From assembly GCF_003259185.1 (NCBI RefSeq), contig NZ_QGMP01000001.1, positions 806,001-870,000 of the forward strand: a stretch of 64,000 bases of DNA, read 5' to 3'. Source of the stretch: Isoalcanivorax indicus (GTDB lineage Bacteria; Pseudomonadota; Gammaproteobacteria; Pseudomonadales; Alcanivoracaceae). The notes under the pieces are model-generated. The model was not told the origin of the DNA. It worked only from the letters and a program-made list of their open reading frames with translations, and made no database searches. The position numbers and the translations under genes were made by a program. Positions 20,170-34,712 of this stretch are shown here, one piece after another. The first letter of the stretch is position 1, and every line of letters begins with the position of its first letter.

Positions 20170-20498
20170 GGCAAGTTCCTTTGTTATTCGCATGATGTCA
20201 AAATGACATCACTCTCCCCGGAACCGTTGAAAATAATTCAATATTCCTTAACTCTGGGTTAAGGATAAGAAATATAGCGTTTGGCTATAAAAACACCCTC
20301 TATTCATACGCCGATCCCCCAGGATTTCAATAGCAAATTTACTAAAGGCAGGTTTTCCTTAATTTGCGTTTTAGTCCCCTTGCCCAGTTACTACTCTGTG
20401 ATGCACCTCGCAACAGCAGGTAACAGGCGGTGACATTGCGCTACAGCCTTGTCGCACAACTTTTTTCTTCGCGAATAAGAAATCAAGGAGATATTCAA
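20170..20498. other. Divergent LysR/fadL regulatory region
   Basis: 329 bases, distinctly AT-rich compared with the neighbours, between the LysR start and the fadL start. Besides the inverted repeat at 20245-20265, it contains TATAAA-like sequence near 20285. No open frame is convincing. It most likely carries both promoters. Confidence 0.6.
20245..20265. promoter_or_regulatory. Candidate LysR operator
   Basis: Inverted repeat TCCTTAAC/GTTAAGGA with a 5-base centre, in the gap between divergent lysR-type and fadL-like genes. The T-N11-A spacing inside TTAAC...GTTAA fits LysR binding sites. Confidence 0.5.
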
Positions 20499-27365: not shown

Positions 27366-27581
27366 GATTATCATCTCCTTGATTGTTGGTATTTCGTGTG
27401 TTGCGAGACCAATGTAGCAATACTTTTAGGTCTTGTTACCGCTTATCCAATGGTTTTGTCTTTGTGTTTTTTCTATTCTCTTTTTGGTCAATGATTTAAA
27501 CAAAAACATCTTCGAATATGTGGCATAGTGCCATCACTTTATGAGCTGCCGGCTGTCCATGGTTGGCGTAGGGAATAGGTA

Positions 27582-29217: not shown

Positions 29218-30036
29218 ATGGATGCGAAGAAGATTTTCCATACATGCATGTTTATATTGGCTTTATTGTTTTTGTCTCTGATTTTCATTCATATGAAGAT
29301 GAACAGTGGCACGAATAATGCGGAACCCTCTGCCATTAAAATAGATGGCAAGATGCCATTACGAGATGAATCTGAGGCCGCCCCGGGCACTCGTTCCGAG
29401 GTAGCCCCTGCAAGCGTATCCCCGCCTTCCCAAGCCGTTGGAGGCGACGATCTGAAGTTGCTGGCGGTTTTCCAGGCCTACAGCAAGTTGGCATCGGTGG
29501 TGATCTTGAAAGAGGGGCATGGTGCATACCGCTATCGCATAGGTGATGCGCTACCTGATGGGCGTGTGCTTGCCGGGATACTGCCGACAAAGGTAATCAT
29601 TAACGATCATGGCGAGCAGATAACACTGCGTATGGCGTTATCGAGCAGCCAGCACGGGCGTGCCGAGGCGCCTGCAGCTCGTGCCGATGCGCCGCCCGCG
29701 CGAACTGATGGTGATTCCCGAATGTCCTGGCAGGTTGTGGACGCTCTGAGGCGACTCGATCTGAGTCCTGTCAGCGAGCACTCAGCGGATGGTTATCTGG
29801 TAGGTGAGAATTTCCCCGCCGAGGGGACAGAAGGGCTTGGTGTGAAGCCGGGTGATGTTGTTGTATCAGTGAATGGCTATCCCGTGGGTGAATACGATAG
29901 CGACTATCTTGTATGGCTCTCGTTCAGGGAGAATTATCGTGCGAGTGTGCTGATACGCCGTGAGAACGGCGAGGAGTTTACCGTTAACTTCCCGGAGGAC
30001 ATGCCCGCCGCCAATTTGCCGGAGCAGGCCCGGTAG
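29218..30036 (+). CDS. Orphan GspC-like protein with PDZ domain
   Basis: 272-residue inner-membrane protein arranged like the type II secretion component GspC: a short cytoplasmic N terminus, one membrane helix (about residues 8-26), a linker rich in Pro, Ser and Ala, a homology-region-like segment (LLAVFQAYSKLASVVIL to QITLRMAL, about 75-142), a second linker, and a C-terminal PDZ domain (about 170-265, GLGVKPGDVVVSVNGYPVGE). GspC passes substrates to the outer-membrane secretin. No other gsp gene is in the window, so it either serves a distant system or has a separate role. It diverges from the FKBP gene. The ATG at 29218 follows GGAG. Confidence 0.75.
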   Translation: MDAKKIFHTCMFILALLFLSLIFIHMKMNSGTNNAEPSAIKIDGKMPLRDESEAAPGTRSEVAPASVSPPSQAVGGDDLKLLAVFQAYSKLASVVILKEGHGAYRYRIGDALPDGRVLAGILPTKVIINDHGEQITLRMALSSSQHGRAEAPAARADAPPARTDGDSRMSWQVVDALRRLDLSPVSEHSADGYLVGENFPAEGTEGLGVKPGDVVVSVNGYPVGEYDSDYLVWLSFRENYRASVLIRRENGEEFTVNFPEDMPAANLPEQAR

Positions 30037-30047
30037 TCAGGGTCTCC

Positions 30048-30704
30048 CTAGCCCGCTTCCTCCTCCGCCAGCTTCTCCTGGACCATCGCCTCGAAACACC
30101 GAGACCCGGTCAGGCCGCCGCTGCACAAGGCGCTTTCGATATGGCGGATCTCATCCGCACTGAGCCCCCCGGCCAGGTAATGTCGATAGTTCTCAATGCG
30201 CTCCCGCCGATCTCGCCCGAGCGCTGCATAGTCTTCATGATTATCCAGCCAGTCCGCCGACGACTTGCCCACCCGCAGGCGGTAGCTGCTATAGGGGTAC
30301 TGGTGCGGTGCGCGGGCCAGGCCAGCCAGCGCCGGCAGGCGCTCGATGTAGTGCATCGTCGCCAGCAGCCACTGCCCGGGTTGAACCGGGCTTGACCGGA
30401 AGCGGCGCTCCCAGGGCGACTGGCCTTCCAGATGTCGTATGCCGCGTGTTACGCGACAGGACAGCGCCTTCACGAACGTCGAGAGGATGTCTGCCTCGGA
30501 AGTGGGTGTCACGAGCAGATGTATCCGGTCTGGCAGTATCGCCCAGGCATGCACGTGAACCGGATGGTTATTCCGCAGAGTGTGCAGGTGGCCAATACAG
30601 CGGGTGAAATCAATCCGCCGACGCAGCAGGTCCGTTCTGTAAGCCGTCTTCCTGACGATATGATGAGGAACGCCAGGGACGAGCAATCGATCTTTCTCCG
30701 ACAT
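30048..30704 (-). CDS. RAYT-like Y1 transposase, active site altered
   Basis: 218-residue member of the REP-associated tyrosine transposase family, single-strand nucleases that mobilise palindromic repeats. GVPHHIVRKT, AWAILPDRIHLLV, SPWERRFRSS and MHYIERLPALAGLA follow the family order. The expected His-x-His metal motif (usually NHVH) reads D59-R60-I61-H62, so the first histidine is lost; the candidate catalytic tyrosine Y119 remains. It is therefore probably inactive as a nuclease or has been taken for another purpose. The start at 30704 follows GGGGGG. No obvious repeat elements flank it. Confidence 0.8.
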   Translation of the reverse strand: MSEKDRLLVPGVPHHIVRKTAYRTDLLRRRIDFTRCIGHLHTLRNNHPVHVHAWAILPDRIHLLVTPTSEADILSTFVKALSCRVTRGIRHLEGQSPWERRFRSSPVQPGQWLLATMHYIERLPALAGLARAPHQYPYSSYRLRVGKSSADWLDNHEDYAALGRDRRERIENYRHYLAGGLSADEIRHIESALCSGGLTGSRCFEAMVQEKLAEEEAG

Positions 30705-31146
30705 GCTATTCCCCCCAACAAACGTTGGACGTCCCAACTGTACTCGCTGGTTCGGGGAAGGCCAGAGTAAGAAAAGTGAATCTTATTTTTCCTTTTTAGT
30801 GTGTTTGGCTATTTTAACGGCAATAAATGGAAATCGAAGATTAACTGAATATGCGGTATGAGTGAGATGCCGGCCAGATCAACGGAGATAAGGCCATAAA
30901 CTCCAGCACACGATTCGGGTCAGGTCTCCCATTTCACATGAGCTTCTGGCATATGCCGCTAAAAGTCCCCACTTTGGGCTTGAGCGGTCTGATGACCTCT
31001 GCAATGGGGGTTCTCGCCGGGATCTGCTTACACAACAAATCATAAAATGCCTACGCGGAATAAAGAGTGCGCTTACAGCCAAACTTGGTTGGCGCAGGCA
31101 AGCTGATCACCCTATGGCTTGTATACGGCATTGCCGTACTGTTGCT
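30705..31146. other. AT-rich intergenic stretch
   Basis: About 440 bases between the RAYT-like gene and the toxin remnant. Apart from short T- and A-rich runs near 30.78-30.84 kb and the palindrome at 31124-31138, nothing was recognised. It has the look of accessory DNA. Confidence 0.45.
31124..31138. promoter_or_regulatory. Candidate operator of a toxin-antitoxin locus
   Basis: Palindrome TACGGC-ATT-GCCGTA located eight bases before the toxin remnant's ATG, where toxin-antitoxin operons usually carry the antitoxin binding site. Confidence 0.45.
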
Positions 31147-32706: not shown

Positions 32707-33411
32707 TCAGTGAATGCTCGAAAGGCTCCCCCAGGCACCGAAGGCGTAGCGGCTGTCATGGCCTTTTGGGGGGCAGTCGATGTACTCCATATCGAACTCC
32801 CGCGGATCGGTAAACAGCAGATCCCGTGCCATTTTCTCCACCGCAAGCAGCGAGGCGCGGTGGTCATGCTCCACGCCGAGCTCGCTCCCCGCGACGTTGC
32901 TGACCAGAATCTTGCTCATGTAACCACCCATCTGGCGTGCATAGTCCATCATCCTGACGTCGATACCGTTCAGGCAGGTCGCAGAGGTGTGTTCCAGAAG
33001 CAACGACATGGCCATGGGCTTCGGGCCGCGCCGCTGACCGAACAGGATGGGAGTGTGGTGATACTTTTTGTAACAAAGACTGCGTTCGATGAACGCTTCC
33101 ATGCATTTTGAGTAGCTGTGCCAGTACAGCCGGGAGCAGAGCACGATGCCGTCGGCCTGCATCATCTCGTTACCGAGAAGGTGATACAGGCCGTCGCGAA
33201 TACGGCAGGGTGACGCGCCATCACAATGGCCGCAGCGCGCCAGCATGTCGGGAATGATTTCCGGAAGGAAACGAAGATTGACGTAGCAGTCTGCTGCAAT
33301 AGCGCCGCGCAGTGCGGCGCGCGCCAGTTGCAGTACGCCGTCGTCGAGCCTGTCGTTCCCCATAAGGACAAGAATTCTGCGCCCGGGGGCGCGATTCGGT
33401 TCCATGTGCAT
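32707..33411 (-). CDS. Flavodoxin-fold NAD(P)H-dependent oxidoreductase
   Basis: 234-residue protein resembling iron-sulfur flavoproteins and NADPH-dependent FMN reductases: ILVLMGNDRLDDGVLQLARA for the FMN phosphate loop (degenerate), C-x2-C-x6-C (CGHCDGASPC), then MQADGIVLCSRLYWHSYS, in the place of the usual ADGIIxxxPVYxGxxS, and MEAFIERS. The cysteines suggest a metal or disulfide. The ATG at 33411 is chosen, with AAGGGG eight bases before. It diverges from the small RNA candidate and the LysR gene. Confidence 0.72.
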   Translation of the reverse strand: MHMEPNRAPGRRILVLMGNDRLDDGVLQLARAALRGAIAADCYVNLRFLPEIIPDMLARCGHCDGASPCRIRDGLYHLLGNEMMQADGIVLCSRLYWHSYSKCMEAFIERSLCYKKYHHTPILFGQRRGPKPMAMSLLLEHTSATCLNGIDVRMMDYARQMGGYMSKILVSNVAGSELGVEHDHRASLLAVEKMARDLLFTDPREFDMEYIDCPPKGHDSRYAFGAWGSLSSIH

Positions 33412-33541
33412 GATAGTTACCCCTTGATAGCATTTTGCCACTATTTTTATCGTTCCGAACCCTTGCTATGGTGGCGATGTCACTGGAGCGAAAGCGCCCG
33501 GCGCATCACCGCTGGATCACTCTGGCAGGCATAATAAGGGC

Positions 33542-33633
33542 GCACAATTCAGTTTAATTTTCCCCGGTTAAATTAAACTGAACACAAGTAGCAAGCTTGC
33601 GCCGTGGTTTCCCCGGATCACGGCGTTTTTTTT
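33542..33633 (+). ncRNA. Candidate small RNA with two C-rich hairpin loops
   Basis: A probable transcript of about 92 nt. After a CATAAT box (33530-33535) come a 13-bp hairpin (33548-33582, arms TTCAGTTTAATTT/AAATTAAACTGAA) and a second hairpin (33600-33625, arms CGCCGTG/CACGGCG) ending in eight Ts. Both loops contain the word TTTCCCCGG, which could pair with GGGG-type ribosome sites. No open frame is present. No -35 box was seen, so the 5' end is approximate. Alternatives are a leader attenuator for the LysR gene or a regulator binding site plus a terminator. Confidence 0.5.
33600..33633 (+). terminator. Strong Rho-independent terminator
   Basis: 7-bp stem CGCCGTG/CACGGCG with a 12-nt loop, followed by TTTTTTTT. 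No protein gene precedes it on this strand for kilobases, so it must end a non-coding transcript or a leader. Confidence 0.85.
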
Positions 33634-33720
33634 GTCATGAGATAACTAAAAGAAACCCAGCATTTATTTTTCATGCCGATTTGTTACATTGAATAATTAT
33701 TTATTCTGATGGCTAAATGC

Positions 33721-33743
33721 CACCATTTTTATGGTGTTTTTTT
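33721..33743 (+). terminator. Weak hairpin with T-run before the LysR gene
   Basis: 6-bp stem CACCAT/ATGGTG, loop TTTT, then seven Ts, 40 bases before the LysR ATG. It could be a second terminator or a LysR binding site. Confidence 0.5.
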
Positions 33744-33782
33744 GCCTGTTATTGTGTGGTCACAGAATAACAGGAAAAAGCC

Positions 33783-34712
33783 ATGTTCAGATCCTTGCCT
33801 ATGCAAACGATGCTGGCGTTCGAAAGCTATGCCCGGAACCGGAAACTGAAGGACGCGGCGGAGGAGCTGGGGGTGTCTTCGGGTAATATCCGGCATCACA
33901 TCAACAATCTTGAGGATTGGTTGGGCACGCCGGTATTTCGCCGTAACGGACGCAGCGTGGACCTGACCGAGGCCGGCCAGCAGTTTTTTCACACGGTGCA
34001 CAGTGCCTTGCTGGATATCCACCAGTGTGCCTCCCAGTTGCGCCCGTCACCGGAAGCCTCGTCGTTGCGCCTGGAAGTGCCTGCCGCGTTCGCGGCGTTC
34101 TGGCTGGTGCCGCGGCTGGGCAGCTTTTACCGGCGCCATCCCGACATCACACTGCACATCGGCACAGAGGGCTCCGCCGTAGACTTGAACCGTGACGCTC
34201 ATGTCGACGTTGCCGTGATGCCCGGGACGGGGCACAGCGGCCCTGTGCTGCAGCATTCGACACTGACGGAAGTGCTTGGCGTATTCGGAACGCCTGATCG
34301 CGTGGCCCGCGCACAGCACGGTCAGATTGAACTGGTGGCATTGCGCGCGCCGCTGAGTAGCGCTTCCGCCAACCACTGGGAGACGTGGTGTGACAAGGCC
34401 GGGCTGGCGTGGTGTGGCAGCGCTGACTGTGCCTGGCGCGTTTATGACCACGAGACCCTGGTGTTGCAGGCCGCACTGGCGGGTCAGGGGCTGGTGCTGG
34501 CCAGCACCTTGCTGGTGGGGGATGCCGTGAAGCAGGGCAGACTGGAGCCTTTCCGGCCGGAGGTGACGATTCCGGGGCCGGGTTATGCGGTGCTGTCGGC
34601 GCCGGGCCGCGACCGGCACCCGCCTGTGCGCGCGTTTCTGGACTGGATCGCGCGGACAGACCGGCCCCAGCCCTCTGAGGACCATGGTGCATACACCCTG
34701 TTTAGCCTATAG
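33783..34712 (+). CDS. LysR-family regulator, GcvA-like
   Basis: 309-residue transcription factor. The DNA-binding domain MLAFESYARNRKLKDAAEEL with SSGNIRHHINNLEDWLGTPV and FRRNGRSVDLTEAG at residues about 8-67 has the GcvA-type wording; the rest is a periplasmic-binding-like effector domain (LRLEVPAAFAAFWLVPRLGS onward). The ATG at 33783 is preceded by AGGAAAAAGCC. The RND pump genes start 42 bases downstream on the same strand, so it may control the pump and share its transcript. Inducer unknown. Confidence 0.87.
   Translation: MFRSLPMQTMLAFESYARNRKLKDAAEELGVSSGNIRHHINNLEDWLGTPVFRRNGRSVDLTEAGQQFFHTVHSALLDIHQCASQLRPSPEASSLRLEVPAAFAAFWLVPRLGSFYRRHPDITLHIGTEGSAVDLNRDAHVDVAVMPGTGHSGPVLQHSTLTEVLGVFGTPDRVARAQHGQIELVALRAPLSSASANHWETWCDKAGLAWCGSADCAWRVYDHETLVLQAALAGQGLVLASTLLVGDAVKQGRLEPFRPEVTIPGPGYAVLSAPGRDRHPPVRAFLDWIARTDRPQPSEDHGAYTLFSL

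Follow-up and report, generated by a model that had tools for sequence, protein, structure and literature searches.

The 64,000-nt stretch of DNA analysed here (the window) comes from an Alcanivorax-like bacterium of a marine, oil-degrading genus and probably carries a real small RNA gene restricted to that genus, a reading to which we assign a probability of roughly 0.8. An initial annotation had proposed such a gene from the letters of the window, and its proposal is now supported by conservation, by compensated changes in the predicted helices and by a terminator loop that is kept in all four homologues. The RNA may act in trans through this C-rich loop.

The conserved unit and its neighbours

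The stretch is present in four of seven genomes of the genus, namely the window's own (G000), G005, G002 and G006, and the last three are 97%, 74% and 69% identical to the window over their best pieces; the four homologues are a small sample made up of two close pairs. In each carrier it is flanked upstream by a divergent flavoprotein gene and downstream by a LysR gene, and the next frame is HlyD-like (by Pfam in the window, by eye in the other three). The upstream neighbour lies on the minus strand, in line with the earlier remark that no plus-strand gene precedes the hairpins. Elsewhere in the window, a frame at 30048-30737 presumably resembles a REP-associated tyrosine transposase. The features of the locus, in window coordinates, are as follows.

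32707-33411, minus strand: flavoprotein gene, the divergent neighbour, with an FMN_red domain (Pfam PF03358, 27.1 bits against a cut-off of 24)
33425-33443, plus strand: operator-like dyad TGATAGCATTTTGCCACTA on the flavoprotein side, upstream of the RNA's -10-like box and at the same place in all four carriers
33463-33472, plus strand: extended -10-like box TTGCTATGGT, the putative RNA promoter, identical in all four homologues
33473-33510, plus strand: 5' hairpin A, with 92.9% of its cells paired and two pairs changed on both sides
33511-33526, plus strand: small hairpin B (GCTGGATCACTCTGGC), with five pairs, all cells paired and one both-side change
33548-33582, plus strand: hairpin C, a 13-bp AT-rich stem whose loop is C-rich only in the window and G005
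33599-33626, plus strand: hairpin D, a predicted intrinsic terminator of 12 pairs with every cell paired and the loop TTCCCCGG at 33609-33616
33626-33633, plus strand: T8 tract, the probable 3' end of the RNA, the same in all four homologues
33707-33725, plus strand: operator-like dyad TGATGGCTAAATGCCACCA, the second of the two, ahead of the LysR gene and at the same place in all four carriers
33746-33755, plus strand: extended -10-like box CTGTTATTGT, the putative LysR promoter, 19-20 nt after the dyad
33783-34712, plus strand: LysR-type regulator gene, the downstream neighbour, with Pfam HTH_1 and LysR_substrate domains

Strong conservation begins at the -10-like box (33463-33472) and ends at the T8 tract (33633), and the unit counted after the box measures 161, 161, 171 and 172 nt in the four carriers. 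Because conservation spans box to T8 tract, it suggests an RNA of about 155 nt, running from approximately 33479 to 33633, where the length in the window assumes the usual 6-7 nt between box and putative start; a shorter or processed form may also occur. The initial annotation had envisaged a transcript of 90-100 nt beginning at 33530, and in both respects conservation points elsewhere, to the longer RNA and to a unit that begins some 60-70 nt further upstream. The two hairpins and T8 tract that it had recognized make up the 3' half of this unit. A 94-nt RNA starting from the CATAAT at 33530 was also considered and is unsupported, the relatives having GATAAG or GGTAAG at that place.

One full copy of the RNA was found in each carrier genome. 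In a DNA search of 46 family genomes, matches at E 0.1 were obtained in 15, with strong matches in the four carriers only and short ones in the others, and the exact stem pattern, searched in genome contigs, matched a single contig from the G005 relative. A covariance search, suggested at the outset as a check, recovered its own four sequences, as it must by construction, and gave no other match better than E 0.095 among 45 family genomes. Among 390 genomes of the order, only G000 and G006 scored strongly, and four new matches were weak (E 6.5e-4, 0.02, 0.06 and 0.08), the best of them depending mostly on the C-loop terminator. With strict filters, under which only some candidates were scored, no convincing member was found beyond the genus in these 45 family and 390 order genomes. 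One weak match in a genome of the same order (G361, L040:1501-1631) falls on a terminator that has a CCCCC loop and stands between two protein frames; it may be an RNA of like design with no relation to this one.

Folding, compensated changes and the terminator loop

The 13-bp hairpin, the second GC-rich hairpin and the eight Ts of the earlier description are all present (33548-33582, 33599-33626 and 33626-33633, respectively). The first is a perfect 13-bp inverted repeat with arms TTCAGTTTAATTT and AAATTAAACTGAA and a 9-nt loop. A perfect arm of at least 13 arose in just one of 1500 simulated local sequences; arms of at least 12 occur at five places in the window, against 1, 0, 0, 0, 0 and 0 in six simulated windows, so hairpins of this kind are no rarity in the genome. 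The region also folds better than its shuffles (z -2.35 for 33500-33640 and -2.63 for 33479-33633).

A consensus fold of the four distinct sequences contains four helices (A, 33473-33510; B, 33511-33526; C; and D) with 41 pairs, and 97.6% of its 164 pair cells are standard. Both-side changes affect five of the 41 pairs. The covariation score and two cell measures were reached by none of 500 shuffles, and pairing drops to 33-45% when the partner registers are slid; the count of pairs with both-side changes (matched by 74 of 500 shuffles) and the number of further pair types (matched by 377 of 500) are not above chance. Two upper-stem pairs of hairpin D are changed on both sides. In hairpin C the result depends on where the gap is placed, since MAFFT positions it differently from a hand alignment: the MAFFT alignment yields one one-side change and no both-side change, and a gapless hand alignment of the arms yields two compensated outer pairs, a lowest pair broken in two species and one change from U-A to a U-G wobble, in which pairing is kept only in the plus-strand RNA. 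In hairpin A, three pairs depart solely through one unpaired sequence, the lowest pairs precede the putative start site, and the best 5' fold of an RNA starting at 33479 differs from the hairpin. Compensated changes thus support hairpins B, C and D, and hairpin A more weakly.

The initial annotation had laid weight on a C-rich word shared by two hairpin loops. That word, TTTCCCCGG, stands at 33559-33567 and 33608-33616 and at no other place on either strand of the window. At least two copies appeared in 12 of 100 shuffled windows, however, and some 9-mer was repeated in 193 of 3000 simulated RNAs; the repeated word taken alone is poor evidence and lies within chance. Its presence in both loops was confirmed for the window, and its first copy persists in only two of the four homologues: loop C reads TCCCCGGTT in the window and G005, and GGCGTGATG and GGTGAGATG in G002 and G006. 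The shared word in two loops, put forward as a hallmark of small RNAs that mask ribosome binding sites, accordingly does not hold for the family as a whole. As to loop conservation, named initially as a way to refute the small RNA, loop D is unchanged in all four species and loop C varies freely above a 10-bp stem core that is nearly invariant.

Because loop C differs in G002 and G006, the conserved seed candidate is one loop, D, and not two. Loop D (TTCCCCGG) is identical in all four carriers despite the both-side changes in its upper stem, and accessibility prediction leaves only its CCCC fully open in all four; the U and G on either side are predicted to be half or fully engaged in U-G pairs. 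As a control, terminators at orthologous places were compared, few pairs in all, some with unlike stems and possibly not true orthologues: between the window and its relatives the loop was kept in one of six comparisons (four terminators), or three of eight when D is included, and between G002 and G006 in one of six, or two of seven with D.

The operator-like palindrome and candidate targets

In all four carriers the RNA-side dyad lies 19 nt before the box, with 3, 3, 3 and 4 mismatches to an ideal palindrome, and the LysR-side dyad has 2, 3, 4 and 4 mismatches and is followed by a LysR box that reads CTGTTATTGT, CTGTTAATGT, CTGCTATCGT and CTGCTATTGT in the four species. Among the matches listed, the ideal palindrome TGATGGCAnnnTGCCATCA occurs with at most two mismatches 24 times in G000, 27 in G002, 28 in G005 and 29 in G006, against 2, 4 and 4 times in the non-carriers G001, G003 and G004; reversed controls gave zero among the matches listed, except one per strand in G001. 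A pattern derived from the RNA locus was found 9, 23, 12 and 18 times in carriers versus 1, 4 and 5 times in non-carriers. The TGATGGCAnnnTGCCATCA search catches just one of the eight locus dyads because these are degenerate (2-4 mismatches), and the relation of the locus dyads to the ideal palindrome is weak. Operator-like palindromes stand in the window at 1183-1201, 20193-20211, 29343-29361 and 33707-33725, with weaker ones at 27518-27536 and 33425-33443, and four of the 24 listed places in G000 (at most two mismatches) fall in these 64 kb. On one side of the palindrome at 20193 is a LysR-like frame and on the other a frame resembling an outer-membrane transporter; G002 has a comparable arrangement, and G006 has part of it.

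The palindrome also precedes a gene matching NCBIfam NF005526, alpha-hydroxyketone-type quorum-sensing autoinducer synthase, with scores of 569.5-576.1 bits in the carriers against a cut-off of 428; a relative of the protein is encoded in all seven genus genomes. Its 21-letter form stands 162-167 nt before the synthase gene in all four carriers, with 0-2 mismatches; in G001 it lies about 230 nt before the start of the synthase match, with one mismatch, and in G004 and G003 the nearest palindrome is at -452, with 3 and 5 mismatches. By comparison, four of 400 random 600-nt stretches of the window contained a match with at most two mismatches. The four synthase loci (L122 in G000, L123 in G005, L124 in G002 and L125 in G006) all have the palindrome upstream, and the neighbours of the gene in L122 encode a response regulator and a diguanylate cyclase. 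The palindrome regulon may be a quorum-sensing one. In an extended version of this idea, which we consider a long shot, the RNA belongs to a clade-expanded alpha-hydroxyketone regulon, in which a single palindrome-binding regulator would control the RNA, LysR and the synthase, and the terminator loop would feed back on a G-tract in the synthase leader.

With regard to targets, the AAGGGG ribosome site of the adjacent flavoprotein gene, named initially as a candidate, offers a GGGG core plus mismatches and ranks 17th for pairing with loop D among the 53 genes of the window, and it was rejected as the preferred target; the genes were called automatically with script-chosen starts, some of them wrong, and the LysR entry (rank 18) used an internal start. 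Target prediction for G-rich ribosome sites, which the initial annotation had recommended, found such sites to be plentiful and no single outstanding target. The pattern CGGGGAA-N(2-12)-ATG outnumbers its reversed control by 98:26, 95:22, 86:19 and 90:25 in carriers (ratio 3.6-4.5) and by 34:14, 93:22 and 86:28 in non-carriers (ratio 2.4-4.2), where the counts are pattern matches and not confirmed gene starts, some sites being counted twice. Carriers are enriched for CGGGGAA before ATG, and therefore matching ribosome sites exist; there is no clear target footprint, because non-carriers are rich in such sites as well.

Pairing of the RNA with the LysR ribosome site is predicted at -7.4 kcal/mol in the window (annotated start), -14.3 in G005, -11.2 in G002 and -19.9 in G006; as a target this site was rejected, being good in G005 and G006, poor in the window and not conserved. 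In the LysR leader of G006 only (L006), CGGGGAATA occurs three times directly before the start and is complementary to the terminator loop. In all four carriers a run of GGGG stands in the synthase leader, 42-48 nt ahead of the start; none is present within 110 nt of the start in G003 and G004, and G001 is ambiguous owing to an uncertain start. In 500 trials each, shuffled synthase leaders paired equally well in 13% (G000), 21% (G005), 1% (G002) and 35% (G006) of cases, and in 74% (G004) and 82% (G003) for non-carriers, such that pairing of loop D with the leader rises above shuffles in one of four carriers only. The synthase-leader G-tract is thus a lead as a possible target, and of the LysR, flavoprotein and synthase leaders examined for complementarity, none is supported in all four carriers.

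Proposed mode of action, alternatives and known RNAs

Taken together, a conserved -10-like box, a T8 terminator and the lack of any frame common to all four homologues are what a small RNA gene would be expected to display. In the mechanism that we tentatively favour, at a little under even odds for the whole, including pairing and lowered translation, the RNA would be transcribed independently from its own promoter (start near 33479), possibly under control of the operator-like dyad, and would be ended at about 33633 by the strong intrinsic terminator formed by D and T8. Hairpin D would hold open the CCCC of its invariant loop UUCCCCGG, and this CCCC, with any chaperone that may assist, would pair with poly-G or GGGGAA-like sequences in the leaders or at the ribosome sites of target mRNAs, thereby lowering their translation.

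Several other readings of the locus deserve weight. The RNA and LysR are on the same strand, and 149 nt separate the terminator from the start of LysR in the window (101-165 nt across the four). A cis-acting attenuator or riboswitch-like leader, whose conserved 5' part senses something and gates transcription past terminator D into LysR, would account for the strong conservation of the 5' domain; a CGGCGC segment of hairpin A could pair with the GCGCCG arm of D. We nevertheless regard this as unlikely, given that LysR seems to own a dyad and a -10-like box after the terminator in all four carriers and that no Rfam cis-element reached threshold. In G003, moreover, a 30%-identical flavoprotein gene lies about 115 nt from a LysR-like frame and the RNA is absent, so such a pair can exist without it. 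Quite unlikely, in our view, is a structured RNA that binds a protein or other molecule through its 5' domain and keeps its terminator loop for another reason: conservation in the core of hairpin A is roughly as strict as in loop D, yet other orthologous terminators mostly lose their loops, and no Rfam family was matched at threshold.

The nearly invariant 10-bp core of stem C around a freely variable loop resembles a DNA-binding dyad, and hairpin C might be a regulator-bound palindrome next to a plain terminator, with no functional RNA at all. The both-side changes in B and D, the compensated outer pairs and U-G wobble in C and the invariance of loop D make this improbable, as does the conserved box upstream in a place where no plus-strand gene needs terminating. 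That the RNA encodes a small protein is highly improbable; a 26-codon frame in the 5' part of the RNA is present in the window and G005, and in G002 and G006 it is missing, broken by differences in length.

None of 4227 Rfam families matched the window at its gathering score. Below threshold, 23S-methyl (RF01065) scored 20.2 bits where 50 would be needed (E 0.72), and tfoR (RF02100) 15.9 bits where 70 would be needed (E 0.21, the best sub-threshold value); both share with the window RNA a two-hairpin layout ending in a terminator, and these scores are weak. The closest parallel in mode is RepG of Helicobacter pylori, which, in passages of its report, pairs through a C/U-rich terminator loop with G-repeats in an mRNA leader (PMC8295292). 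The window RNA has a C/U-rich terminator loop too (UUCCCCGG); unlike RepG it has four predicted hairpins and operator-like dyads upstream, and no kinship is claimed. CJnc190 of Campylobacter jejuni is described, in part of the source, as pairing through a C/U-rich loop with a G-rich ribosome site and as having RNase III processing and an antisense partner (PMC8687705); here again a C-rich loop is the candidate seed, and again we claim no kinship. The paper on the LhrC sRNAs of Listeria contains the terms terminator loop, C-rich and Shine-Dalgarno, and its title calls them multicopy (PMC4132741), whereas the window RNA has one full copy per carrier genome.

In Alcanivorax dieselolei, passages of an sRNA catalogue state that most sRNAs are locally distributed within the genus, and those passages hold no description of this RNA (PMC9788540). 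The titles and abstract openings of literature on Alcanivorax sRNAs, start sites, C-rich-loop sRNAs, RepG, CJnc190 and alpha-hydroxyketone/LqsR leave the RNA unnamed, and at the same depth no work was found linking Alcanivorax with cqsA, or LysR with this kind of sRNA.

The Qrr sRNAs serve quorum sensing in Vibrio, and their genes use sigma-54 and LuxO; we take the family to be among the 4227 searched. A parallel in logic is possible, in that an sRNA would share a regulon with an alpha-hydroxyketone autoinducer synthase, and the window RNA is unlike Qrr in that its box resembles an extended -10 and it has no Rfam match.

The locus points to an RNA family that lacks any match to an Rfam model and is backed by compensated changes, and it hints at a link between this RNA and a regulon of palindromic operators to which an autoinducer synthase gene belongs. 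If loop D is indeed the seed, it would join RepG as a further case in which a C-rich terminator loop is directed at G-rich leaders, and if the quorum-sensing reading is true, these marine bacteria would have assembled a Qrr-like circuit from unrelated parts.
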